Assembly: GCF_004310335.1 (NCBI RefSeq)
Contig: NZ_SIRS01000001.1
Location: 682,001 to 746,000, forward strand
Length of the DNA: 64,000 nucleotides
Direction: 5' to 3'
Source: Hyunsoonleella pacifica
GTDB taxonomy: Bacteria; Bacteroidota; Bacteroidia; Flavobacteriales; Flavobacteriaceae
How positions within the stretch are numbered: the stretch's first letter is position 1; the number at the start of each line of letters is the position of its first letter. Shown here piece by piece: positions 1 through 12,447 of the stretch. The notes below the pieces were generated by a model. It saw only the letters and a list, made by a program, of their open reading frames with translations, did no database searches and was not told the DNA's origin. Both the position numbers and the translations under genes were made by a program.

Positions 1-53
1 CAGATGAAGCACAAGTTTAAAATCAAAAAAATATTCTCCTAAAAGGAACTGTC

Positions 54-497
54 TTAATTCATAATTTGATTTAAATGATAACTCAAGTGATCAACGTAGT
101 CTTTTATCAGAAACTTCAAATCAACTATTGTTGTATTGTTAGTATGAACTTTATAATTCAAAGTTTCTTCGTTTTGGTTTTTTATTACAAATAAAATCCG
201 ATTATTGAGTGCTATCCATAAATCAAGTAGCTCTTTAGTATCTGCACTTTGATAATGATTTGCTTTTACTAATTCATCTTGACTGTATTGTTTGATTATA
301 TATGGCTCAGTTTCAAACTGAATTTCAGTAAACCTTTGAAGATTATTAATGGCAGAGTCAATTAAATGACCTAAAATTTCTTTTTTTGACCACTTTTTCG
401 AAGATAGTTTTTTTGAAAATTCTATTTCAGGAGCATTAGCAATATAGTTCAACCCATCGCTTAGTAGCAATTCAAGTTCACTTATGGTTTTATTCAT
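54..497 (-). CDS. DinB-like putative metal-binding protein
   Basis: Small soluble protein of 147 residues that fits the DinB/YfiT four-helix superfamily: His44 in a GHLIDSA context and an HxxxH pair (His137, His141) near the C-terminus make the usual three-histidine metal site. Family members are often thiol-dependent transferases or stress proteins (several use bacillithiol or mycothiol as cofactor), but the substrate cannot be read from sequence. It is the last gene of a probable tpx-dgkA-dinB operon, 9 bases after dgkA, so a link with thiol or peroxide stress is an inference from context. Confidence 0.7.
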   Translation of the reverse strand: MNKTISELELLLSDGLNYIANAPEIEFSKKLSSKKWSKKEILGHLIDSAINNLQRFTEIQFETEPYIIKQYSQDELVKANHYQSADTKELLDLWIALNNRILFVIKNQNEETLNYKVHTNNTTIVDLKFLIKDYVDHLSYHLNQIMN

Positions 498-506
498 AAA
501 TTTAAT

Positions 507-872
507 TTAGAATTTTGGGATGTAAATTATGCAACCCATAATAGCTGCGCAAATTGCGGCAATAAAAACCGCTCCAGCTGCTACATCTTTAATATAGCCT
601 ATCTTTTTATGGTACTCTGGATGTACAAAATTGGCAACTTCCTCAATAGCTGTGTTTACGCCTTCCAGCCCAATTATAAGAGCTATGGTAAGTATTTGTA
701 TAAGCCACTCGGTTTTTGAGATTTCAAAATAAAATCCAGCTATAGTTACTAAAACAGCAACCCCAAGCTGGATTTTTATACTAGATTCCTTAGTAATTAA
801 TAATATCGCTCCTTTAAGCGCATAGCCTACGCTTTTTAATCGGTTTACTAAGAAAGATTCTTTTTTAGGCAT
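507..872 (-). CDS. dgkA: Diacylglycerol kinase family integral membrane protein
   Basis: Short (121 residues) membrane protein of the prokaryotic DgkA type, which phosphorylates diacylglycerol or undecaprenol in the inner membrane. Three hydrophobic segments are visible (about 32-48, 55-70, 95-117). The conserved core E70-G-x-N-T-A-I-E77 followed by K-D96-x-A-A-G matches the DgkA active-site region. Whether it is a diacylglycerol or undecaprenol kinase (as in Gram-positives) cannot be decided. Its start overlaps the end of tpx by 8 bases, which indicates translational coupling. Confidence 0.88.
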   Translation of the reverse strand: MPKKESFLVNRLKSVGYALKGAILLITKESSIKIQLGVAVLVTIAGFYFEISKTEWLIQILTIALIIGLEGVNTAIEEVANFVHPEYHKKIGYIKDVAAGAVFIAAICAAIMGCIIYIPKF

Positions 873-1371
873 CGTAAAGCGCTTCTAAAGCTGCTTTGTA
901 GTTAGGTTCCTCTCCTGTTTCTGGAACTTGCTCATTATATAATACTTTACCAGATGCATCAGCTACAACTATGCTTCTTGATAGCAAAGCATCAAAAATT
1001 CCGTTAGTGAATAATACGCCATAATCTTTTCCAAACTGTCCAGTTTTAAAATCTGAAAGCATTACTACATTATCTAAACCTTCTGCTGCACAAAATTGTT
1101 CTTGAGCAAAGGGTAGATCTCTCGAAATACACAATACTTTTGTGTTTTCTAACTCGTTAGCTTCAGCATTAAACTGTCTTACAGAAGCTGCACATACTCC
1201 GGTGTTAACGCTAGGAAATATATTTAAAATCAATCTACTTCCTTTAAAGTCTGCTAAAGTTTTTGAAGATAAATCTATTGCTATTAATTCAAAATCTGAA
1301 ATTTGAGAACCTACAGCAGGTAGCTCTCCGATAGTTTCTACTGGGTTTCCTCCCAATGTAATGTTAGCCAT
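865..1371 (-). CDS. tpx: Thiol peroxidase (atypical 2-Cys peroxiredoxin)
   Basis: 168-residue Tpx, a cytoplasmic peroxidase that reduces H2O2 and alkyl peroxides using thioredoxin. The peroxidatic Cys60 lies in the P-S-V-N-T-G-V-C context and the resolving Cys94 sits 34 residues later, the spacing typical of Tpx. Length is normal for the family. First gene of a minus-strand operon with dgkA and a DinB-like gene. Its promoter must lie in the 270-base region shared with the divergent katG, so co-regulation by a peroxide sensor is plausible; an ATCGAT palindrome lies there at 1534-1539. Confidence 0.95.
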   Translation of the reverse strand: MANITLGGNPVETIGELPAVGSQISDFELIAIDLSSKTLADFKGSRLILNIFPSVNTGVCAASVRQFNAEANELENTKVLCISRDLPFAQEQFCAAEGLDNVVMLSDFKTGQFGKDYGVLFTNGIFDALLSRSIVVADASGKVLYNEQVPETGEEPNYKAALEALYDA

Positions 1372-1531
1372 TTTTTTGTTTTTAATTAGAGCTAATAAAA
1401 GTAAGCATATTTAATGTAATGCATAAATAATTAAGAATCTTTTAGAAATTATTATAATAAACTATTGGTTAGTAATATGCAGTATTTTTAGTTATTTGTA
1501 AAAACTATTGTTTTTTGAGTGTTAATAAATT

Positions 1532-1539
1532 TTATCGAT
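1532..1539. promoter_or_regulatory. Candidate redox-regulator site between tpx and katG
   Basis: TTATCGAT lies in the AT-rich 270-base divergent region between tpx and katG. The same octamer occurs upstream of the peroxiredoxin gene (7187-7194). Shared presence upstream of peroxide-defence genes suggests an operator, possibly for an OxyR-type protein, but eight bases are weak evidence and the rest of this intergenic region shows nothing else I can name. Confidence 0.25.
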
Positions 1540-1584
1540 TTTAATATAATTTATAAAAATGTTCCAAGGGTTTAGCAAGGTTAA

Positions 1585-3861
<2,277 letters not shown>

Positions 3862-3880
3862 TTGAATAGATTAATAGTTG

Positions 3881-3925
3881 AAAGTTGGGATGAACATATA
3901 GTGATGTTTATCCCAACTTTATTTT
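3881..3925 (+). terminator. Long stem-loop between katG and the ankyrin gene
   Basis: A 17-bp stem with one mismatch (3881-3897 pairs with 3904-3920, six-base loop) is followed by ATTTTAT. It looks like an intrinsic terminator or attenuator placed between katG and the ankyrin gene, and would lower read-through from katG. Confidence 0.75.
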
Positions 3926-3939
3926 ATGTATGATATATT

Positions 3940-4410
3940 ATGGATGACATTGCAAGTTTTTTTGGAGCGATTCAATCGGGAGATACTAGCCAAATAGAAG
4001 TACTTTTAAAATCTAACCCTGAATTAGTTAAAGCTACAGATCAAAGAGGGTTTACGCCATTAATTTTCGCAGCTTATTTTGATAAAAAAGCTATAGTTGA
4101 AATCCTTTTAGGCTACAACGCTCCAGTTGATGATACTGATGGTTCAGGAAATACAGCACTTATTGGTGTTGCTTTTAAAGGGAATACCGATTTGGCAAAG
4201 CTATTACTTAATAAGGGTGCTAATATTAATGCCCAAAATAACCTAGGATATACGCCCTTAATCTTTGCAAGTATGTATGGGCAAACTAAAATGGTAGCGT
4301 TGTTATTGCAAGATCATGCCGATGCTACAATACAAGATAATGAAGGGAAAATTGCATTGGATTATGCTGAAGAAAAGAAGTTTCGGGAGGTTATTGGATT
4401 GTTGAATTGA
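3940..4410 (+). CDS. Ankyrin-repeat protein linked to katG
   Basis: 156-residue protein made almost entirely of ankyrin repeats (about four, from residue 33 to the C-terminus, with G-x-T-P-L-I-F-A-A and N-x-x-G-Y-T-P-L-I-F-A-S type consensus segments). No signal peptide or catalytic motif, so probably a cytoplasmic protein-protein interaction module. Ankyrin proteins encoded next to catalases are known (AnkB beside KatB in Pseudomonas aeruginosa, needed for full catalase activity), and a similar role here is inferred from the 78-base distance to katG. The stem-loop between them suggests lower expression than katG. Confidence 0.85.
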   Translation: MDDIASFFGAIQSGDTSQIEVLLKSNPELVKATDQRGFTPLIFAAYFDKKAIVEILLGYNAPVDDTDGSGNTALIGVAFKGNTDLAKLLLNKGANINAQNNLGYTPLIFASMYGQTKMVALLLQDHADATIQDNEGKIALDYAEEKKFREVIGLLN

Positions 4411-4423
4411 TTTTTTTGAGAGT

Positions 4424-4633
4424 TTCGTTTAACGGTCTAGTATATGGCTCGTAGCGTGTATGTAAATTAGCGATTATTTTCGGATTAAACATAAGCCAGA
4501 TTTTTAAATTTTACCATTTATGTTTTATATTGGAAATCGTCAAACTTAAAAATTTGGCGACTTTCCAAATATGCTTTAACTTTGTTTAAACAACTGATTA
4601 GCTATGAGCTATATACGTTGTTGCCAGTAGTAC
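4424..4633. repeat. Structured boundary element, left end of nuclease/TIR cassette
   Basis: About 210 non-coding bases with nested inverted repeats. Outer arms 4440-4454 and 4602-4616 pair over 15 positions with two G-T type differences; an inner hairpin pairs 4532-4544 with 4553-4566 with one bulge. The outer end carries TTCGTTTAACG (4424-4434) and the inner end TTGCCAGTAGTAC (4621-4633), directly abutting the stop codon of the TIR-like gene. Both ends have inverted counterparts at 5721-5731 and 5644-5656. This is what a mobile cassette or recombination site would look like; the exact class is not identified. Confidence 0.6.
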
Positions 4634-5110
4634 TTATTCATCGGACAAAAGTTTAATTATTGCTACTGCTGCAATACCACCTAAAAGCCATCCTAAAGCG
4701 CTATTGTTTTCAGATTTTCCTTTCGCATTTTTAATTCTTGCTTTAATATTCTCAATCTGTTGATTTGGATAATTGCGATTAAATCTTACGAGGTTATTAT
4801 GATTTAATAATTCAGATGCAATATTTACAGAGTCTTCAATTAAAAGTAGATTCGGTACATCATTTTCTACAGCTACTTGCCATTCGTTAAAAACATTTTG
4901 ATTTCTGTCGCCATATTGAGTAATAAGTCCAATAAAAAGAGACGATTTTAAAATACTATTATGAGTTGACATTTGCACAATGTGCATATAATCGTCATAA
5001 CTTGAATTTATTGAATAGCCTTCTTCTCTCAATAAATTTGAGAGTAGAGTTAGCACAAATTGTTCGCTATCTCTTAATGCGTATGATATAAAAGCTACTT
5101 TATTATTCAT
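4634..5110 (-). CDS. TIR-like protein with C-terminal membrane anchor
   Basis: 158 residues. The N-terminal part (3-110) has a TIR/SEFIR-like pattern: K-V-A-F-I-S-Y-x-x-x-D at the first beta strand, a predicted helix, then a strand S-L-F-I-G-L-I-T, F-N-E76-W in the position where NADase TIR domains carry their catalytic Glu, and a V-P-N-L-L-L-I-E strand. A hydrophobic segment at about 138-153 suggests a C-terminal membrane anchor. Its start overlaps the stop of the upstream nuclease gene by four bases (ATGA), so both are one transcript. TIR proteins beside nucleases usually act in anti-phage defence; that role is inferred. A nucleoside-deoxyribosyltransferase-like fold is the alternative. Confidence 0.55.
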   Translation of the reverse strand: MNNKVAFISYALRDSEQFVLTLLSNLLREEGYSINSSYDDYMHIVQMSTHNSILKSSLFIGLITQYGDRNQNVFNEWQVAVENDVPNLLLIEDSVNIASELLNHNNLVRFNRNYPNQQIENIKARIKNAKGKSENNSALGWLLGGIAAVAIIKLLSDE

Positions 5111-5628
5111 AATTCAAGCTTTAATTTTTCTAATCTTAAATCTCTTTCTTTTGAGTATTCATAATACTTTGGAAAGTACTGATTATGTAAAGTTCCAACG
5201 AAACCAAGAATTTGTCTGTAATGATTTCCATTCCAAATCTCGTATGCAACACCGTTTTTTTCTTTATTTCTTAAATTCTCAAATGTATTTGTAACTCCAA
5301 CGTGAACAGAACCTTTTACTATTAGTAAATATCCGCAAGCATCATATTCACTTATCAATGTTGGTATATTTATTTGGTCAAGATGACTTTTCAATAAATT
5401 GTCATAAAACTTACATTGAACAATCCACTTTCGTTCATAGGTAACAATCGTGTCGTCAATCATTAAAGTAACTAAAATATCTCTTCCGCCATCTGGACCT
5501 CGACCAGAAGGTTCTACCTTAACAGTTGTAATTTGATTCGTGTCCAATCTTTTGATTTCTCGGAAGTAGTCAGCTGTGAGGTCTTCAAATTCCTCCCAAT
5601 CATTTATTTCGTTAAAATCAATTTTCAT
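5107..5628 (-). CDS. Mrr-like PD-(D/E)xK restriction endonuclease domain protein
   Basis: 173 residues. The N-terminal W-E-E-F-E-D-L helix, then G-P-D-G-G-R-D50 and V-Q71-C-K73 give the D...QxK core of the Mrr-type PD-(D/E)xK nucleases. No methyltransferase or specificity gene is nearby, so it is not a classical restriction-modification system; methylated or phage DNA, or a signal from the partner TIR-like protein, could be the trigger. First gene of a two-gene unit. Starts 15 bases inside the right-hand boundary repeat. The pair sits between katG/ankyrin and the thioredoxin operon and looks inserted. Confidence 0.75.
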   Translation of the reverse strand: MKIDFNEINDWEEFEDLTADYFREIKRLDTNQITTVKVEPSGRGPDGGRDILVTLMIDDTIVTYERKWIVQCKFYDNLLKSHLDQINIPTLISEYDACGYLLIVKGSVHVGVTNTFENLRNKEKNGVAYEIWNGNHYRQILGFVGTLHNQYFPKYYEYSKERDLRLEKLKLEL

Positions 5629-5643
5629 TTATGCGTTTTTCTC

Positions 5644-5731
5644 GTATTACTGGCAATGTGTTGACGGATATGCGCCGTTATGATACTGAAACGAGTTAAG
5701 CACAAGTGGCTTATATCTGGCGTTAAACGAA
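5644..5731. repeat. Structured boundary element, right end of nuclease/TIR cassette
   Basis: Non-coding stretch whose ends are inverted copies of the left boundary: GTATTACTGGCAA (5644-5656) mirrors the left inner end with one change, and CGTTAAACGAA (5721-5731) mirrors the left outer end exactly. Between them ATATGCGCC and GGCTTATAT can form a partial stem. It probably also holds the promoter of the nuclease gene. Confidence 0.5.
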
Positions 5732-5770
5732 GGTAGTTGAATTTTTTTACAAAGTCAATTTTGAAGAAAC

Positions 5771-5797
5771 AAAAAAGCCACCTCAAAATAGATGGCT
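5771..5797 (-). terminator. Terminator of the peroxiredoxin/thioredoxin operon
   Basis: AGCCACCT and AGATGGCT form an 8-bp stem (one mismatch) followed on the minus strand by a T-rich run; it lies 26 bases after the last gene of the operon, just outside the cassette boundary. Confidence 0.75.
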
Positions 5798-5823
5798 CTA
5801 GATATAACATTTCTCTTTTTCAA

Positions 5824-6081
5824 TTAAGTATCAATAGCCCCCATAACACGACTCATAAAACTATTTAATGCTTCTTTTTTTGGTGTACCGTCCTTAGTTA
5901 TTTTATTAACTTCAAGCGCACCATACATATTAGAGATCAATTCGCCTATAACATCTAATTCTTCGTCTTTTAAAGAAGGTACTTCGGTTAAGGCTTCTAG
6001 GGTTTCTATCGTTTCCACAATAAAATCCTCATCGTTGTCTTCTATAAAATTGGTTAGATGTTTAATTACTGGTAACTTCAT
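5824..6081 (-). CDS. Small conserved protein downstream of thioredoxin
   Basis: 85-residue acidic, helical protein with no signal peptide, membrane segment or catalytic motif. I recognise it as a family of unknown function found in Flavobacteria next to thioredoxin-like genes (I believe it is catalogued as DUF6952, not verified). Its first 20 bases overlap the end of the thioredoxin-like gene, an unusually long overlap that argues for coupled translation and a shared task, for example acting on or with that protein. Confidence 0.75.
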   Translation of the reverse strand: MKLPVIKHLTNFIEDNDEDFIVETIETLEALTEVPSLKDEELDVIGELISNMYGALEVNKITKDGTPKKEALNSFMSRVMGAIDT

Positions 6082-6376
6082 TCACTAAATCTTTAAGTAC
6101 ATCAAATTTATTTGTCTGTACTTGGTTTATAAAAGTACCGTTCTTAAAAGCAGCAAATGTTGGCAAATTATCAACTGTGGCTAACTTTCTAGACTCTGGG
6201 AATTTTTCAGCATCAGCAATAACAAAGGTGATATTTTCTAATTCTGATGCTAACTTTTTAACTTTTGGTTTCATTATGCGACAGTTACCACACCAAGTTG
6301 CTGAATATTGAACTACAACCGTATCGTTTCCTGATATTAATTCTTGTAAATTATCTTGTTCTAATTCTTTTACCAT
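6062..6376 (-). CDS. Thioredoxin family protein (WCGNC active site)
   Basis: 104-residue cytoplasmic thioredoxin fold. Active site W-C29-G-N-C32 differs from the canonical WCGPC by Asn for Pro, which normally changes redox potential; the cis-Pro loop L-P72-T-F is intact. No signal peptide. It lies 76 bases downstream of the 2-Cys peroxiredoxin gene and probably serves as its dedicated reductant, an inference from position. A perfect stem-loop separates the two genes (6400-6432). Confidence 0.9.
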   Translation of the reverse strand: MVKELEQDNLQELISGNDTVVVQYSATWCGNCRIMKPKVKKLASELENITFVIADAEKFPESRKLATVDNLPTFAAFKNGTFINQVQTNKFDVLKDLVNEVTSN

Positions 6377-6391
6377 AACACTATCAATTTT

Positions 6392-6447
6392 AAAATTCCA
6401 AATTCCAAAGGTGATATTGGAACTTGGAATTTAGATTTTGGAATTTG
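6392..6447. repeat. Iterated AAATTCC / GGAATTT stem-loop between prx and trx
   Basis: AAATTCCAA units (6393-6408) and TTGGAATTT units (6424-6447) form a 9-bp perfect stem with alternative pairings because the units are repeated on each side. Could be a processing or attenuation hairpin that sets unequal expression of peroxiredoxin and thioredoxin-like protein; no T-run follows on the minus strand. Confidence 0.5.
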
Positions 6448-6452
6448 TATAA

Positions 6453-7094
6453 TTATACGTGTGCCGCTAAATATTCAGCAACACCGTTTCTATTAGCATT
6501 CATAGCATCTTTACCTTCTTCCCAGTTTGCAGGACAAACCTCTCCTTTTTCTTGAACGTGAGTTAAAGCATCTACTAAACGTAAATACTCTTGTACATTT
6601 CTTCCTAATGGCATATTATTGATACTTTCATGTTGTACAACACCTTCTTCATCTATAATGTAAGTAGCTCTGTAAGTTACATTGTCTCCATCAACAGTTA
6701 CGACTCCAGTCTCTTCGTTGTAGGTTTCGTTTGTAATGTCTAAAATACCTAGAGTAGAGGCTAAGTTTCTGTTAGAATCTGCTAAAAGCGGATAAGTAAC
6801 TCCCTCAATACCACCATTGTCTTTCTCAGTACTTAACCACGCAAAATGTACTTCTGGGGTATCACAAGATGCACCAATTACAATGGTATTACGCTTTTCA
6901 AATTCCCCTAGAGCAGCTTGAAATGCATGTAGTTCTGTTGGACATACAAAAGTAAAATCCTTTGGATACCAAAATAAGATTACTTTTTTCTTGTTGTTTA
7001 CTGCTTCTTCTAACACGTTTAACTTAAATGTATCCCCTAAATCGTTCATTGCGTCTACATTTAAACTTGGAAATTTTTTTCCTACAAATGCCAT
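6453..7094 (-). CDS. 2-Cys peroxiredoxin (AhpC/Prx1 class)
   Basis: 213-residue typical 2-Cys peroxiredoxin, which detoxifies H2O2 and organic peroxides. Peroxidatic Cys51 is in D-F-T-F-V-C-P-T-E, the resolving Cys187 in G-E-V-C-P-A-N-W near the C-terminus. Cytoplasmic. No AhpF gene follows; instead a thioredoxin-like gene is downstream, which suggests the electron donor. The 214-base upstream region has two ATCGAT palindromes 21 bases apart (7189-7194 and 7210-7215), a possible regulator site. Confidence 0.95.
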   Translation of the reverse strand: MAFVGKKFPSLNVDAMNDLGDTFKLNVLEEAVNNKKKVILFWYPKDFTFVCPTELHAFQAALGEFEKRNTIVIGASCDTPEVHFAWLSTEKDNGGIEGVTYPLLADSNRNLASTLGILDITNETYNEETGVVTVDGDNVTYRATYIIDEEGVVQHESINNMPLGRNVQEYLRLVDALTHVQEKGEVCPANWEEGKDAMNANRNGVAEYLAAHV

Positions 7095-7186
7095 AATTAT
7101 CTATATTTTATATTGATTAATAATTTTAATTTTAAGCAAAATTATCATTTATAATAGCTGTAAAAATAGATTGCAATTATTAAATC

Positions 7187-7216
7187 TTATCGATGGATAG
7201 TAAATGTGTATCGATT
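7187..7216. promoter_or_regulatory. Paired ATCGAT palindromes upstream of the peroxiredoxin gene
   Basis: ATCGAT occurs at 7189-7194 and 7210-7215, two helical turns apart, with ATAG and further A/T-rich half-sites between and before them. The arrangement resembles binding by a LysR-type tetramer such as OxyR. The remaining bases of 7095-7308 show nothing else. Confidence 0.3.
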
Positions 7217-7308
7217 CAAAAATCAGTGCTAAATTTTGAGAATTATACAAAGATTAATGATTAGAATTATCAAGTTGATAAATGATACTGTAGCGAGATA
7301 AAGTATTC

Positions 7309-8802
7309 TTATTTAGTTTTTGAAAGCTGTTTAATTTTTATTCTGAAAGCAGCGAAAAGAAGTGTCATGAATGGACTTAAAATACTAAAAAAAGCGTATG
7401 GAATATATGCTGTTGCACCAGCATAACCAAACAAGACTTTTGAATGATAAGCTCCACAAGTATTCCAAGGAATTAAAACAGAAGTTACTGTTCCTGAATC
7501 TTCTAGAGTTCTACTAAGGTTCTCAGGAGCTAAACCTCGATCTTCATAAGCTTTTTTGAACATTTTACCAGGGACAACCAAAGCTAGATATTGATCAGAT
7601 GCAGTTAAATTTAAAGCTAGACAACTCGCCACAGTGCTTGCAAAAAGGCCAAAAGTAGTTGTTGCCATTTTTAATAATGATTTTGTAATTCTAGATAATG
7701 CGCCTATGGCATCCATTACACCTCCAAAAACCATAGCACAAACAATAAGCCAAATAGTTCCAAGCATACCACTCATTCCGCCTGCAGTAAATAAATCATT
7801 TAATTCTTTACTACTAGTTTGTATAGAAGTGTCAACAGTTAAAGCATTCATTACTCCTTTGTAAGCAGATTGAAAATTTAAGGATTCAGCACCAGCTATA
7901 CTAGTAACAATATTTGGTTGAAAAATAATAGCTGTAACCCCTCCCAAAAGCGAACCTGTAAGAAGTGCTATTAACGGTGGTGTTTTTTTTATAATCATAA
8001 AAATCACAAGTATTGGAATTATAAATAGCCATGGGGTTATATTAAAAGCACCACTTATAGCTTGCAATTTATCATCTATTTGTGGCGTCCCAGAAGTATT
8101 TAAATTGAGACCAATAATTATAAAAACAATAAGAGTTATAATGATGGTAGGTATAGTGGTTAAGGACATATATTTTATATGTGAAAAAAGTTCTCCACCA
8201 GCCATTGCTGGTGCTAGATTAGTAGTATCACTTAACGGCGACATTTTATCCCCAAAGTAAGCTCCTGAAAGTACAGCACCAGCAGTCATTCCAATAGAAA
8301 TACCTAATGTTTCTCCAATACCTACTAGAGCAATACCTACTGTTGCTGAAGTAGTCCATGAACTTCCAGTTGCAATAGAAATAATTGAGCAAATTATGAC
8401 ACAAGCTGCTAAAAAAATTGTAGGGCTTAGTATTTGAAGTCCATAATAAATCATTGTAGGTATAATTCCACTAATTAGCCATGTTCCTGCTAAAGCACCT
8501 ACCATTAATAAAATTAAAAGAGCTCCTGTAGTAGATTTTATATTTTCAGCAACTTCCTCAAGCATTCTTTTGTAAGTTACTTTGTTTCTAAAACCTATAA
8601 TAGCAGCAACAGCAGCACCTAATAATAATATAAACTGATTGCTCCCACTTAAGGCATTGTCTCCAAAAACATAAATATTGTATGCAAGCATACCTACTAA
8701 AGCAATAACCGGAATTAACGCTTCCCAAATACTCAACTCGGTATTTTCAACAATATTTTGGTCGTTGGCCTTAAATTCTGAGATATTTTTATTGTCCTCC
8801 AT
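7309..8802 (-). CDS. nhaC: NhaC family Na+/H+ antiporter
   Basis: 497-residue inner-membrane protein with about twelve hydrophobic segments and the NhaC signature G-D-K-M-S-P-L-S-D-T-T-N-L-A (around residues 184-197), which forms part of the ion pathway. It exchanges external protons for internal Na+, useful for a marine bacterium. The N-terminal 25 residues are hydrophilic and cytoplasmic. It stands alone: 214 bases separate it from the peroxiredoxin gene on the same strand. Confidence 0.93.
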   Translation of the reverse strand: MEDNKNISEFKANDQNIVENTELSIWEALIPVIALVGMLAYNIYVFGDNALSGSNQFILLLGAAVAAIIGFRNKVTYKRMLEEVAENIKSTTGALLILLMVGALAGTWLISGIIPTMIYYGLQILSPTIFLAACVIICSIISIATGSSWTTSATVGIALVGIGETLGISIGMTAGAVLSGAYFGDKMSPLSDTTNLAPAMAGGELFSHIKYMSLTTIPTIIITLIVFIIIGLNLNTSGTPQIDDKLQAISGAFNITPWLFIIPILVIFMIIKKTPPLIALLTGSLLGGVTAIIFQPNIVTSIAGAESLNFQSAYKGVMNALTVDTSIQTSSKELNDLFTAGGMSGMLGTIWLIVCAMVFGGVMDAIGALSRITKSLLKMATTTFGLFASTVASCLALNLTASDQYLALVVPGKMFKKAYEDRGLAPENLSRTLEDSGTVTSVLIPWNTCGAYHSKVLFGYAGATAYIPYAFFSILSPFMTLLFAAFRIKIKQLSKTK

Positions 8803-8911
8803 AGTAACTTTTTAGTTAAGTAATGTTACAATTTTATTGATTGCTTTCAAAATAATGTGACGCTTAAGATGTTTTGTGTCATAATTTATTGATAATCTAG
8901 AAATTTCTGTT

Positions 8912-9088
8912 ATGATTTTTATAATATCTTTATTAGTGCTTGTTATTTTGTATGCTTTGGCAAATGATGGGTTCACTTCAAACTCTAATCACAAGGAACT
9001 TAAAGACTTCGATAAGGAAAAAGAAATAGAAAATGAAGTTACGTCTATACAAACTATTTTGGATTTTGATTTTGAAACTTTAATATAG
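8912..9088 (+). CDS. Possible small single-span membrane protein
   Basis: A 58-codon open frame starting with ATG encodes a hydrophobic N-terminus (residues 2-17, I-F-I-I-S-L-L-V-L-V-I-L-Y-A-L) and then a charged, Lys/Glu-rich tail. The shape is that of a small single-pass membrane protein, and the hydrophobic/charged split is unlikely in random AT-rich DNA but not impossible. No family is recognised. It is 109 bases from the divergent nhaC start, in an otherwise gene-poor 790-base stretch. Confidence 0.35.
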   Translation: MIFIISLLVLVILYALANDGFTSNSNHKELKDFDKEKEIENEVTSIQTILDFDFETLI

Positions 9089-9272
9089 CCTGATGAACTA
9101 TGTATACTTATAAAAAAGCAGAAAGTGATTAGTAAGTAAAAGTTCTATGTAGTAACCTTTAATCTTATTATGTTTTAATATTAAATTTTAGAAAATATCT
9201 TAATTTACATTTTAGCACATTGTATTGCTACAATAAAAAAATAAAAAGGTCTCTCTCAATTACTTTTATTAA

Positions 9273-9551
9273 TCATATATAAACCTTTATGCGCAGATTG
9301 GTATTGTAACTATTATACCCTTATCTACATTAGATATTTATACTTCTTTATCTGTCAATATCACTATAACTTCTGCTAGTTTAACTCTAGACGAAACTAT
9401 TCTTGGTGGAAATCATAATATTAGCTTACATAGAAGTTTTAGCAACACTCATAGCTATTACGGAACTGCTTTAGGGTTTCGGTCTATTACTGAAACAGGA
9501 AATGTTAATGGAGCAAGAGTTGCTGTATGGCTAAGAAGAATACCTTTATAG
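9273..9551 (+). pseudogene. 3' remnant of an unidentified gene
   Basis: An open frame of 92 codons with no ATG in frame ends at 9551 and reads like a beta-rich protein C-terminus (repeated alternating Ser/Thr/Ile strands, then Y-Y-G-T-A-L-G-F-R-S and a final W-L-R-R-I-P-L). The frame upstream is closed by stops. A hairpin follows 10 bases after the stop, as behind a real gene. The most economical reading is the tail of a decayed gene; use of a rare start codon cannot be excluded. Nothing recognisable lies at 9089-9272. Confidence 0.4.
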
Positions 9552-9561
9552 TCATAAATTA

Positions 9562-9588
9562 AAAAGTTAGTTAACTTTGCTAACTTTT
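9562..9588 (+). terminator. Hairpin after the gene remnant
   Basis: AAAAGTTAG (9562-9570) and CTAACTTTT (9580-9588) form a perfect 9-bp stem with a terminal T-run. It ends 3 bases before the next ATG (9592), so it could also influence translation of that gene. Confidence 0.55.
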
Positions 9589-9591
9589 AAT

Positions 9592-10614
9592 ATGGATTCG
9601 CTAACTCAAATTGTTTTAGGAGCTGCTTGTGGAGAAGCAGTTTTAGGAAAAAAGATAGGAAACAAGGCTTTACTATTTGGGGCTATAGGAGGGACAATTC
9701 CAGATTTAGATGTTTTAGTAGGAGGCTTGCTCTATGGAAATGAAATTGATGCTATGTTATTTCATAGAGGTTTCATGCATTCTATTTTATTTTCTGTTTT
9801 AGCAGCTTTTCTTTTGGGTATAGGTGTTCATAAACTCTATGACTTTGGAAAGCGAAAAAATACTACAACTAAAAACAATTGGATATCTCTATTTTTCTGG
9901 TCTTTATTTACTCATCCTATTTTAGATGCTTTTACCCCTTATGGGACACAATTATTTACGCCTTTTAGTAATTATAGAGTAGCTTTAAATAATATTGCAG
10001 TAGCAGACCCAGCATACACTTTGCCATTTTTAATTTGTATTATAGTTGTAATGTTTTTTAAACGCTCATCTAGTAAGAGAAGTTTATGGTTAAAATTAGG
10101 TATTGGTATCAGTTCCGCTTACTTATTATTTACCCTAGGAAACAAACTATATGTAGACTCTATTTTTCGAAAGTCTTTAAAAGATGCAGAGATAGGTGCC
10201 GTTAGATTTAGTACACAACCAGCCATTTTGAATAACATATTGTGGTATGCTATTGCAGAAACAAAGTCTGCCTATTATGTAGCAGATTATTCTTTGTTAG
10301 ATACCAAAAATAGATTTTTGAATTTCACAAAAATTCAAAAACAACGTGATTTAACACCGTCTGAATATGATGATGTTAAAAGATTATCGTGGTTTAGTAA
10401 TCAATATTATAGTATTTATAAACTAAATGATAATGAATACCAATATAACGATTTGCGTTATCCACTTTTAGATTTAAAAAACCCAAATACTTCAGTATTT
10501 AGTTTATCGTTATATAAAGAGAATAATAGGTTAAATATGAAGCCATTTGAGCCCAAATTTGATGATATGGATAATGTATTTAAGTCCTTGTGGATACGTG
10601 TAAAGGGTATCTAA
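9592..10614 (+). CDS. Membrane-bound metal-dependent hydrolase (DUF457/YdjM type)
   Basis: 340 residues from the ATG at 9592; a TTG 15 bases upstream is in frame but lies in a hairpin, so the ATG is preferred. N-terminal half carries four or five membrane segments and the family motifs M-D-S-L-T-Q, P-D-L-D (near residue 39) and H-R-G-F-M-H-S (near 61), probable metal ligands. The C-terminal 150 residues are soluble. Family members resemble E. coli YdjM and phospholipase-like hydrolases; substrate unknown. Converges with the next gene, stop codons 6 bases apart. Confidence 0.8.
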   Translation: MDSLTQIVLGAACGEAVLGKKIGNKALLFGAIGGTIPDLDVLVGGLLYGNEIDAMLFHRGFMHSILFSVLAAFLLGIGVHKLYDFGKRKNTTTKNNWISLFFWSLFTHPILDAFTPYGTQLFTPFSNYRVALNNIAVADPAYTLPFLICIIVVMFFKRSSSKRSLWLKLGIGISSAYLLFTLGNKLYVDSIFRKSLKDAEIGAVRFSTQPAILNNILWYAIAETKSAYYVADYSLLDTKNRFLNFTKIQKQRDLTPSEYDDVKRLSWFSNQYYSIYKLNDNEYQYNDLRYPLLDLKNPNTSVFSLSLYKENNRLNMKPFEPKFDDMDNVFKSLWIRVKGI

Positions 10615-10620
10615 ATTACC

Positions 10621-11826
10621 TTAGTTTTTTAATATTCCTAATTCAACCATACAGTTTTGCATCATTTTATAGGTTCGTTTAATATCAGCATCTAGACCTA
10701 TTGAGAATCGGATAAGCCCATCACTTAGTCCCATATTGCGTTGTTCTTCTTCTGAAATTTCTGAAGATGTAGAAGTTCCAGGAGCAGAGAATAACGTTTT
10801 ATAAAACCCTAAACTTACAGCTAAATACCCCAAATTTCGATGTTGCATTAGCTCCATAAGCTCATTGGCTCTTTTTAAAGACCCAACATCAACAGTTAGC
10901 ATACCACCAAAACCATATTCTGTATTCATCATACTTTTGAATAACTCATGCGAAGGGTGTGATTTTAATCCAGGATAAACAGTTTTTAAACCATCAGCTT
11001 TAAATTTTTTAGCCAAATACAATCCATTTTTACTATGTTGTTGCATCCTTATGTGTAATGTCCTCAGGTTTTTTAATATTGAAGATGCTCTTAAGCTATC
11101 CAAGGTAGAGCCAAGTAGCATTCCTGCCCCATCATTCACGTTTCGTAAATCGTTAATGAATTTTTGTGTACCGCAAACTACACCACCAACAGTATCACTG
11201 GAACCATTGATGAATTTTGTTAAACTATGAATAGTAACATCAGCCCCTAGCATAGCAGGAGAAATAGATAATGGAGAAAAGGTATTATCAACAACTAATT
11301 TTAGGTTATATTTTTTAGCAATTTTAGAAAGTGCTCTAATATCTGCTACTTCTAAAAGCGGATTACTAACAGATTCGCAATACAGCACTTTAGTCTGTTT
11401 CGTAATTACTGCTTCAACATTTTCTATTTTGGTAATATCTACAAAGGAAGTTTCTATATTAAATTTAGGTGTAAAGTTTTTAAAGAACGCGTAAGTGCCA
11501 CCGTAAATAGTTCTACTGGAAACTATATGGTCTCCAGCATTACATAATTGCATAATTACAGATGTAATTGCTCCCATTCCAGAAGATGTAACAGTAGCAG
11601 TTTCAGTATTTTCCATAGCAGCTAATGCTTCTCCCAGATATAAATTAGAGGGAGAGGAATGACGTGAATATAGATAACATCCATCCGCATTACCTTCAAA
11701 AGTATCAAACATGGTTTTAGCAGAGAGAAAGGTATAGGTTGAGGTATCTGAAATAGATGGGTTAACCCCACCAAATTCGCCAAAATACTGTAAATCTTGT
11801 ATGTTATTTGCAGGTTTAAAACTCAT
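10621..11826 (-). CDS. Trans-sulfuration family PLP enzyme (Cys/Met metabolism)
   Basis: 401 residues from the ATG at 11826, chosen over an in-frame start 54 bases upstream because homologues begin near M-S-F-K-P. PLP fold type I: Schiff-base Lys204 in H-S-L-T-K-F, Asp180 contacting the pyridine N, and the Y53-S-R55 phosphate motif from the neighbouring subunit. Candidates are methionine gamma-lyase, cystathionine gamma-lyase or cystathionine gamma-synthase. The Cys typical of methionine gamma-lyases after the active-site Tyr is Gly here (Y108-G-G110). The divergent Lrp-type gene 159 bases away is its probable regulator and favours an amino-acid catabolic role. Confidence 0.85.
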   Translation of the reverse strand: MSFKPANNIQDLQYFGEFGGVNPSISDTSTYTFLSAKTMFDTFEGNADGCYLYSRHSSPSNLYLGEALAAMENTETATVTSSGMGAITSVIMQLCNAGDHIVSSRTIYGGTYAFFKNFTPKFNIETSFVDITKIENVEAVITKQTKVLYCESVSNPLLEVADIRALSKIAKKYNLKLVVDNTFSPLSISPAMLGADVTIHSLTKFINGSSDTVGGVVCGTQKFINDLRNVNDGAGMLLGSTLDSLRASSILKNLRTLHIRMQQHSKNGLYLAKKFKADGLKTVYPGLKSHPSHELFKSMMNTEYGFGGMLTVDVGSLKRANELMELMQHRNLGYLAVSLGFYKTLFSAPGTSTSSEISEEEQRNMGLSDGLIRFSIGLDADIKRTYKMMQNCMVELGILKN

Positions 11827-11985
11827 GGTAAATACATTGAAATCATAATGCAATTTCACTGTTTTTAGAAATAAAGTCAATATGAATCATGTTTTTTAGA
11901 AAATAAATCTTTTAATTTTACTATTTTTAGAATAAATATTTAAACTATCCTTTTAATTTTAACTTAAAGCGAAATTTTTTCAATA

Positions 11986-12447
11986 ATGGTTTTTGATAAA
12001 ATTGACAAAAAACTACTAGAGCTTTTACAAAGTGATAGTAAACAAACTAATAAAGAACTTTCTAATAAATTAGAGCTTTCGGTAACTGCGGTTTATGAGC
12101 GTATTAAAAAATTAGAAAAAGAAGGGTTTATTGAGGGCTACACAGCTGTAATTAATAAGCAAAAAATTAATAGAAATTTTGTTGCGTTTTGCCACATAAA
12201 ATTATTGCAACATAGCCAAGAGTATGTGTATAGTTTTGAAAGACAGGTAAATAAGTTAGATGAGGTTTTAGAGTGTTACCACCTTAGTGGCGATTATGAT
12301 TATCTTTTAAAAGTTATTGTAGAGGATATGGTTTCTTTTAGAGCGTTTATAGTAAAAAAGCTTACGAGTATCAATCATATTGGCAGTACGCACAGTATGT
12401 TTGTTATAAATGAAGTAAAGCAAACTAATATAATTCGGTTTTCATGA
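11986..12447 (+). CDS. Lrp/AsnC family transcriptional regulator
   Basis: 153 residues. N-terminal winged helix-turn-helix (residues 3-60, D-x-K-L-L-E-L-L-Q ... L-S-V-T-A-V-Y-E-R-I-K-K-L-E) followed by an AsnC ligand-binding RAM domain with the G-D-Y-D-Y-L-L-K motif (around 104-111). Such proteins sense amino acids and often control the divergently transcribed gene, here the PLP enzyme. The stop overlaps the start of the following protease gene by four bases. Confidence 0.92.
   Translation: MVFDKIDKKLLELLQSDSKQTNKELSNKLELSVTAVYERIKKLEKEGFIEGYTAVINKQKINRNFVAFCHIKLLQHSQEYVYSFERQVNKLDEVLECYHLSGDYDYLLKVIVEDMVSFRAFIVKKLTSINHIGSTHSMFVINEVKQTNIIRFS

Follow-up and report, generated by a model that had tools for sequence, protein, structure and literature searches.

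A nuclease and TIR-like gene pair as probable cargo of an integron-like cassette in Hyunsoonleella pacifica

The window analysed here, 64,000 nucleotides of the Hyunsoonleella pacifica genome (contig NZ_SIRS01000001.1, positions 682,001 to 746,000), contains two coupled genes that encode an Mrr-type nuclease and a TIR-like protein. We consider that these two genes are probably carried together as cargo by one cassette of an integron-like system. At the level of sequence, the borders of the cassette, its attC-like end, the docking site that holds it and the turnover of contents at such sites could each be traced. An initial annotation had described the pair as a candidate anti-phage system, inserted as a cassette between conserved stress genes. 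The insertion was borne out, as borders, attC-like end and docking site were all recovered. The carrier itself was overlooked, namely an integron-like cassette that has an attC-like end and occupies a dispersed docking site; it is the more unusual feature.

Docking sites and cassettes

The mobile unit spans 4433-5656, and the docking site adds 5657-5758 and 4409-4432 on its two sides (Table 1); the initial annotation covered the genes alone. Both open reading frames were present as described, with an ATGA overlap. The repeats said to bound the pair were also found: TTCGTTTAACG is inverted at both cassette ends, and TTGCCAGTA.TAC forms an inner inverted repeat immediately outside the two genes, which is the pairing of the cassette start with the R''-like arm. 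On one side lie katG and an ankyrin-repeat gene, and on the other genes for DUF6952, a thioredoxin and a peroxiredoxin-like protein (katG and the peroxiredoxin-like gene were named by reading), in agreement with the flanks first proposed.

Read in gene orientation, the docking site has an outer 5' part that reads TTGACTTTGTAAAAATTTTCNNCTACCTTCGTTTAACG, continues with a hairpin and ends in GTCAACNC at the junction, and an outer 3' sequence, TTAAACGAACCTCCCAAAA. Its TTG-N20-TAnCTTCG spacing fits what we take to be the Bacteroidetes promoter consensus. Twelve genomes of the genus were searched for the 5' part, a pattern of 35 positions in which up to 3 mismatches were allowed, with the reversed pattern as a control. 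It occurred at 73 places in 9 of the 12 genomes, and the reversed pattern at none. In a sample of 199 genomes of the family, 21 contained the 5' pattern, with up to 21 occurrences per genome. Five of the 73 sites were empty (L120, L121, L129, L166 and L172), with the hairpin joined directly to a CGTTAAACGAA-like core.

The window locus itself varies between species. The interval between the ankyrin-repeat and DUF6952 genes is only 103 bp in genome G003 and 129 bp in G008. In other genomes it carries a gene that is HNH/NUMOD-like (G007), DUF6090-like (G009), RelA/SpoT-like (G002) or lipoprotein-like (G001). The names of these cargo genes come from reading; profile matches to DUF6090, HNH and RelA_SpoT are present among docking-site cargo. 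The outer docking sequences at this locus are common to the window genome (G000), G002, G007 and G009. No DUF6952 gene was found in the 5-10 kb examined in G005, G006, G010 and G011.

Contents also differed between orthologous docking sites elsewhere. By alignable upstream flanks in different genomes, 50 docking sites fell into 16 groups, giving 63 within-group pairs, of which 38 were comparable (in 15 an open reading frame of 60 aa was missing near the start, and in 10 one site of the pair was empty). The first open reading frame differed in 36 of the 38 and was similar in two. Among 59 first open reading frames, each Pfam family matched at most 3, with HNH, Fic_N, GmrSD_N and RelA_SpoT present. 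Several PADLOC profiles, SoFic, NsnA and DrmC among them, had one member each among the matches listed (25 of 34 families). One docking site (L170, G005:C2:115623-119257) apparently carries a row of cassettes, with three downstream matches to the site model described below.

Around integrase-type genes, small same-strand genes are separated by hairpins of 133-139 nt. A covariance model, R1, was built from 18 such array sites that adjoin integrase genes or what is left of them, at 7 loci in 6 genomes (G000, G002, G007, G008, G009 and G047). Five of the 18 sites belong to the window genome's own array. In the window, R1 gave a single match at E ≤ 1, which was the cassette 3' end (Table 1). Two integrase loci outside the training set matched as well: L207 with E 6.6e-10, truncated at the end of the contig, and L212 twice, at best with E 1.2e-23. 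The 73 docking loci yielded 50 matches at E ≤ 0.01; 49 of these, from 44 of the 73 loci, were on the gene strand and downstream of the promoter; 41 ended at the docking core and none was on the opposite strand. The variable interval of G001 (L045) had no R1 match. Across the 12 whole genus genomes there were 405 matches at E ≤ 0.001, including 35 in the window genome. Of 395 Bacteroidota genomes sampled, at least 104, from 65 of 171 genera, had an R1 match; since only a small number of candidates was scored in each genome, these counts are minima.

Integron sites have RYYYAAC/GTTRRRY cores, and when an integron cassette is excised its first letters complete its own 3' site. Complementarity is therefore expected between the start of a cassette and its own R'' arm. 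We entered 45 of the 50 R1 matches in this test and dropped 8 without AAC at the expected place, which left 37. The start paired with its own R'' at 7 or more of 8 letters in 28 of the 37, as against 5.5% of 1,326 non-own comparisons, and at all 8 letters in 20 of the 37, as against 14 of the 1,326. The window cassette paired at 8 of 8. Modelled as an excised circle with DNA parameters, the window site folded to -32.7 kcal/mol on the bottom strand (z about -6) and to -27.2 on the top strand (z -4.2). Both sequence and folding thus agree with an attC site having a G↓TT core and a hairpin, and the R1 matches describe small cassettes in a single orientation relative to the promoter.

The docking hairpin was assessed separately. 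By reading, some stems carry compensating changes (for example, GCC/GGC versus TTC/GAA). A count of pairs over 35 of 45 short-loop sites gave 89.7% of cells paired, compared to 84.7% when shuffled, and 16 cells changed on both sides, compared to 5.4 (0/500), although this covariation support is weak because some of the sites are orthologous to one another and the structure was itself derived from them. The DNA fold z values of the five empty sites were -5.1, -2.5, -1.1, -3.2 and -6.3.

Table 1. Features of the cassette, its docking site and its flanks (window positions; the arrow marks a junction).
Feature	Position	Strand	Details
Integron-like gene cassette (putative)	4433..5656	(-)	1224 bp; begins with TT after the 5' junction and ends with G before the 3' junction
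Cassette 5' junction		(-)	TCAACACA↓TTGCCAG
Cassette 3' junction		(-)	GACCG↓TTAAACGAA
Mrr-type (PD-(D/E)xK) nuclease gene	5107..5628	(-)	173 aa; D50, Q71/K73; PF04471
TIR-like protein gene	4634..5110	(-)	158 aa; E76; C-terminal hydrophobic helix; PF13676 sub-threshold
attC-like site	4425..4628	(-)	R1 match, 42.5 bits, E 7.1e-8
R''-like arm GTACTACTGGCAAC	4620..4633	(-)	complementary to cassette start TTGCCAGTAATAC
attC L''-like arm	4601..4616	(-)
attC L'-like arm	4440..4455	(-)
Docking site, 3' remainder (TTAAACGAAACTCTCAAAAAAATC)	4409..4432	(-)
Docking-site hairpin region (GTTTAACGCCAGATATAAGCC ... GGCGCATATCCGTCAACACA)	5657..5728	(-)
Promoter-like docking sequence TTG-N20-TACCTTCG	5728..5758	(-)	directed towards the nuclease gene; presumed promoter, by the Bacteroidetes consensus
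Ankyrin-repeat gene, conserved flank	3940..4410	(+)
DUF6952 gene, conserved flank	5824..6081	(-)

The recombinase and the origin of the cassette

An integrase gene adjoins the array at the 7 loci in 6 genomes used for R1 (at two of them as a remnant), and also at L207 and L212. The main array-linked group consists of tyrosine recombinases of 355-359 aa with 63-78% identity to the L206 protein. R213, H302, R305, H328 and Y337 are invariant in this main group, as is an SPLD end; the roles of these five residues we presume to be those usual in tyrosine recombinases. The integron-integrase model TIGR02249 exceeded its cut-off in 0 of the 12 genomes and for 0 of 7 proteins, which it matched in two pieces, omitting about positions 181-238. 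It also matched below the cut-off in 14 of 14 control genomes, so such matches alone prove nothing. The structure of VchIntIA (PDB 2a3v) likewise aligned in two pieces, whereas XerA (4a8e) aligned throughout, and the L209 recombinase passed the XerA model NF040815. Among the 395 genomes, R1 matches were more frequent where the N-terminal domain of the integrase was found (22 of 34 genomes) than where it was not (82 of 361; Fisher 9e-7). Relative to the array, the integrase gene was divergent in L204, L205, L206 and L215 and in the same direction in L203, L209 and L210.

Some further features of these loci were seen. The array of the window genome (L203, G000:C1:800000-816000, 3135-6604) lies about 120 kb away beside the interrupted integrase gene and has at least 5 attC-like sites; one of its cassettes encodes, by reading, a ParD/ParE-like pair. 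In L206 (G008:C15), at least 7 attC-like sites (696-7428) diverge from an open 355-aa integrase gene, and the gene closest to the integrase is barstar-like by reading. An inverted repeat like TTTTGTATATCA...TGATATACAAAA occurs just upstream of the integrase start in L206 (6300-6360), L204, L215 and partly L205, and is possibly a regulator site. In G006 and G011, many short frames of about 48 aa, some with stops, matched only the C-terminal end of the integron-integrase model.

A number of observations weigh against an integron-like origin. The integrase gene of the window genome has an in-frame stop, and a domain search found no second copy of the array type there; exchange may therefore have ceased in the window strain. 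The attC-like site of the window is about 204 nt long, compared to 133-139 nt in arrays, and ranks 33rd of 50 by R1 score, and the 5' junction of its cassette reads CA↓TT rather than CG↓TT. No downstream R1 match was found in 29 of the 73 docking loci, five of which are the empty ones. With the dropped matches counted as misses, the start/R'' test was passed by 28 of 45; 9 of the 37 failed it, and one pass, L127, sits in a hairpin loop, not at the junction. Two of the empty sites, L129 and L166, do not take up the hairpin fold that was drawn. Docking-hairpin pairs changed on both sides numbered 4, compared to 3.0 when shuffled (132/500), and sliding the hairpin by +2 columns gave 5 such pairs and 14 cells. 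R1 had no match in 12 of the 34 genomes with the integrase domain, and 82 of the 104 R1-positive genomes had no match to that domain. R1 also had no match in the Aequorivita locus described below, and the pair is therefore not bound to cassettes; only two loci are known to carry it. By score, the recombinases are as near to XerA models as to IntI models. The XerA model was the best for 6 of the 7 recombinases and IntI for one, and about 43 residues fewer than in VchIntIA are present where the additional, IntI-specific domain would lie. In its accessible part, PMC9668308 presents this domain as the defining character of IntI, necessary for integron recombination, and the available text of PMC8138268 describes the insertion as not fully conserved in its integron-like subgroup, yet essential for integron function. 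Because the recombinases lack this one mark of canonical integrons, we file the system as integron-like.

Could the same arrangement have arisen by other means? Homologous recombination between conserved hairpins or flanks might swap the contents of docking sites, the attC-like ends then being fossils of an inactive integron. The interrupted integrase of the window genome fits this account, and flanks and docking hairpins are sufficiently conserved for it. We nevertheless consider it unlikely: empty sites and cassettes share one G↓TT position in many loci that are not linked, the start of a cassette pairs with the 3' hairpin of that cassette, and open integrase genes stand next to attC-like sites in G002, G003, G008, G009 and G047. 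Far less probable still is a non-autonomous transposon with hairpin ends (IS200/IS605-like or REP/MITE-like) and passenger genes. Although inverted TTCGTTTAACG ends, subterminal hairpins, dispersed copies and the lack of any transposase seen inside would suit such an element, its ends match the attC-like sites in arrays next to integrase genes, the promoter and hairpin of a docking site persist without any gene, and orthologous flanks stay in place while the gene changes.

For an integron-like cassette, we envisage that an array-type tyrosine recombinase, of Xer-like length and without the IntI-specific domain, would insert the cassette into the docking site at its G↓TT core. Insertion would place the pair under the docking promoter and so may lead to its expression.

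The nuclease and TIR-like pair

The nuclease assignment of the initial annotation was upheld, in that Mrr_cat (PF04471) scored 24.4 bits against a Pfam gathering score of 21. The match is confined to residues 10-77 of the 173 aa, and no second Pfam domain was reported. For the second protein, the TIR-like assignment stood in part. It resembles TIR_2 (PF13676) and has a conserved E76, which we take to correspond to the catalytic Glu of TIR domains; the score, however, was 20.8 bits against a cut-off of 28, and the predicted fold suits DNPH1/RCL or a deoxyribosyltransferase about equally well. D50 and Q71-C72-K73 of the nuclease and E76 of the TIR-like protein are at the positions claimed and are identical in the sole close relative found (E76 in 2 of 2 TIR-like sequences), and the GPDGGKD and QCK motifs also occur in a further nuclease relative (L004). 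The C-terminal membrane anchor that had been proposed corresponds to a hydrophobic segment at residues 138-156 (mean Kyte-Doolittle 1.95), modelled as a helix at 137-156.

Structure prediction, which had been suggested as a check, gave a usable model for one of the two proteins. The TIR-like model (mean predicted local distance difference test score, pLDDT, 67.8) was ambiguous, with TIR, DNPH1/RCL and 2'-deoxyribosyltransferase (NDT) folds matching about equally. The nuclease model was unusable (mean pLDDT 39.4) and counts, with the sub-threshold TIR_2 score, among the points against our overall reading. A PDB sequence search returned nothing meaningful for either protein, and Rfam gave only matches far under the gathering scores. 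The initial annotation knew of no named defence system made of just these two parts, and no PADLOC system model fits them. PADLOC reported only PDC-M58A, across 35 nuclease residues, and a weak PDC-S66, and the partner genes and profiles of Thoeris, CBASS, Pycsar or any other named PADLOC system were not found. As stated in the initial annotation, no methyltransferase accompanies the pair, judged by reading alone, with no profile search, of the open reading frames overlapping 1-12000.

When genome contigs were searched with the TIR-like protein only, the sole close relative locus was L216, in an Aequorivita metagenome-assembled genome. There the nuclease gene again precedes the TIR-like gene, with stop and start sharing one base, so that the adjacency proposed as a check was indeed kept in one independent locus, next to a defence-looking neighbour. 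Identity between the window and L216 is 84% for the nuclease and 77% for the TIR-like protein, and the L216 proteins scored 26.3 against PF04471 and 20.9 bits against PF13676 (cut-off 28). Non-synonymous and synonymous divergence (dN/dS) was 0.102/1.78 for the nuclease and 0.146/1.41 for the TIR-like gene, values that are rough because dS is above 1. Strong DNA similarity stops at the gene borders (window 4634-5630). From these two observations, both genes have been kept by selection in two different settings. Because an adjacent pair is under purifying selection in L216 too, the nuclease and TIR-like proteins look, from their sequences, like one functional unit. The next gene in L216 encodes a 984-aa HSDR_N and Avs2-like protein. 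The region as a whole (741-7573) comprises the pair, the Avs2-like/HSDR_N gene and three proteins without a Pfam or PADLOC match at E ≤ 0.01, and resembles a defence island.

Other relatives were few and distant. In 99 related genomes, the nuclease matched in 3 and the TIR-like protein in 2, the window genome being counted in both and the others being weak; among the 395 genomes of the phylum, the window genome alone had the TIR-like protein. Plasmids and phages each gave one distant nuclease match (in phages, the P2-EC67 Z region) and none for the TIR-like protein, and viral contigs matched neither. These distant relatives of the nuclease are located in the variable region of a P2-type prophage and, beside a TrlF-type ATPase gene, on a Sinorhizobium plasmid. 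In G047, a distant relative (31% identity) is the first gene next to the array-type integrase.

What might the pair do? As an anti-phage unit, its PD-(D/E)xK nuclease would cut or sense foreign DNA, while its membrane-anchored TIR/N-glycosidase-like protein would destroy a nucleotide cofactor, with NAD+ as the first candidate, or make a signal. We hold an anti-phage function to be evenly balanced, on the basis of family resemblance, the conserved pairing, the neighbour in L216 and an integron precedent from Vibrio: the accessible portion of a review (PMC12409362) describes the chromosomal integron of Vibrio cholerae as a biobank of defence systems. That NAD+ is the target is doubtful. A reading of the second protein as a DNPH1 or 2'-deoxyribosyltransferase-type nucleotide N-glycosidase, not a TIR NADase, is a real if lesser possibility, given that the three folds match its model about equally. 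We think it rather unlikely that the pair is a selfish toxin-antitoxin or cassette-stabilising unit instead. The text available of PMC8618304 does report that some two-ORF cassettes encode toxin-antitoxin systems, and the array of the window genome holds the ParD/ParE-like pair; in Pfam, NCBIfam and PADLOC, however, neither protein has a toxin or antitoxin match, and the neighbour in L216 is defence-like.

Comparison with known systems

Integrons are listed for Bacteroidota at phylum level in the accessible parts of PMC8618304 and PMC2426708. The IntegronFinder 2.0 survey (PMC9024848), in its accessible text, notes that its predecessor found only cassette-less integrases in Bacteroidota, and gives one complete integron in Bacteroidetes proper, in Salinibacter ruber. 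The cassette principle is thus known; among the open-licence papers listed by our searches, none described arrays or docking sites of this sort, and the variant with both, as read from sequence, appears to be without an earlier report there. We are modestly inclined to think that Bacteroidota have an integron lineage of their own with Xer-length recombinases that lack the IntI-specific domain. In some Flavobacteriaceae it would be distributed, with up to about 20 promoter-equipped docking sites across the chromosome and swappable cassettes that are expressed in place, not stored in a single long array, and include defence cargo.

If the sites are working attC sites, a large cassette pool has been overlooked in a major phylum, perhaps because the integrase is missing the hallmark domain and the sites form a type apart. 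Two questions become testable now, namely the need of attC recombination for the IntI-specific domain and the expression of cassettes from dispersed promoters. For phage biology, docking sites and arrays could be read as a source of candidate defence genes, of which the nuclease/TIR-like pair is one.

With other Mrr-type nucleases (PF04471), the window protein shares a catalytic-domain score over the cut-off, D50 and Q71xK73; it differs in its length of 173 aa, in the confinement of the match to residues 10-77 and in its TIR-like partner gene. TIR effectors occur in Thoeris, some CBASS and Pycsar systems (PMC9122126, accessible part). Like these, the pair has a TIR-like protein with a conserved Glu, to which the window protein adds a membrane helix, but its partner is an Mrr-type nuclease and no PADLOC system model describes it.

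The carrier has two close counterparts. In attG insertion, as far as the available text of PMC12901181 describes it, cassettes likewise enter scattered chromosomal places outside the array, at attG sites that diverge in sequence and structure from classical sites (Loot et al. 2024, cited therein). In contrast, the sites described here are a recurrent, conserved docking sequence with a promoter-like element and GTTTAAC/GTTAAAC cores. Canonical integrons (IntI, attI and attC arrays) share more: a tyrosine recombinase gene adjoining small same-strand genes, G↓TT hairpin sites, a cassette start complementary to its own 3' arm and a bottom strand that folds better. The Flavobacteriaceae system differs from them in that its recombinase is without the IntI-specific domain, its attC-like sites are of their own type, 133-139 nt long, and dispersed, promoter-bearing docking sites exist besides the arrays.
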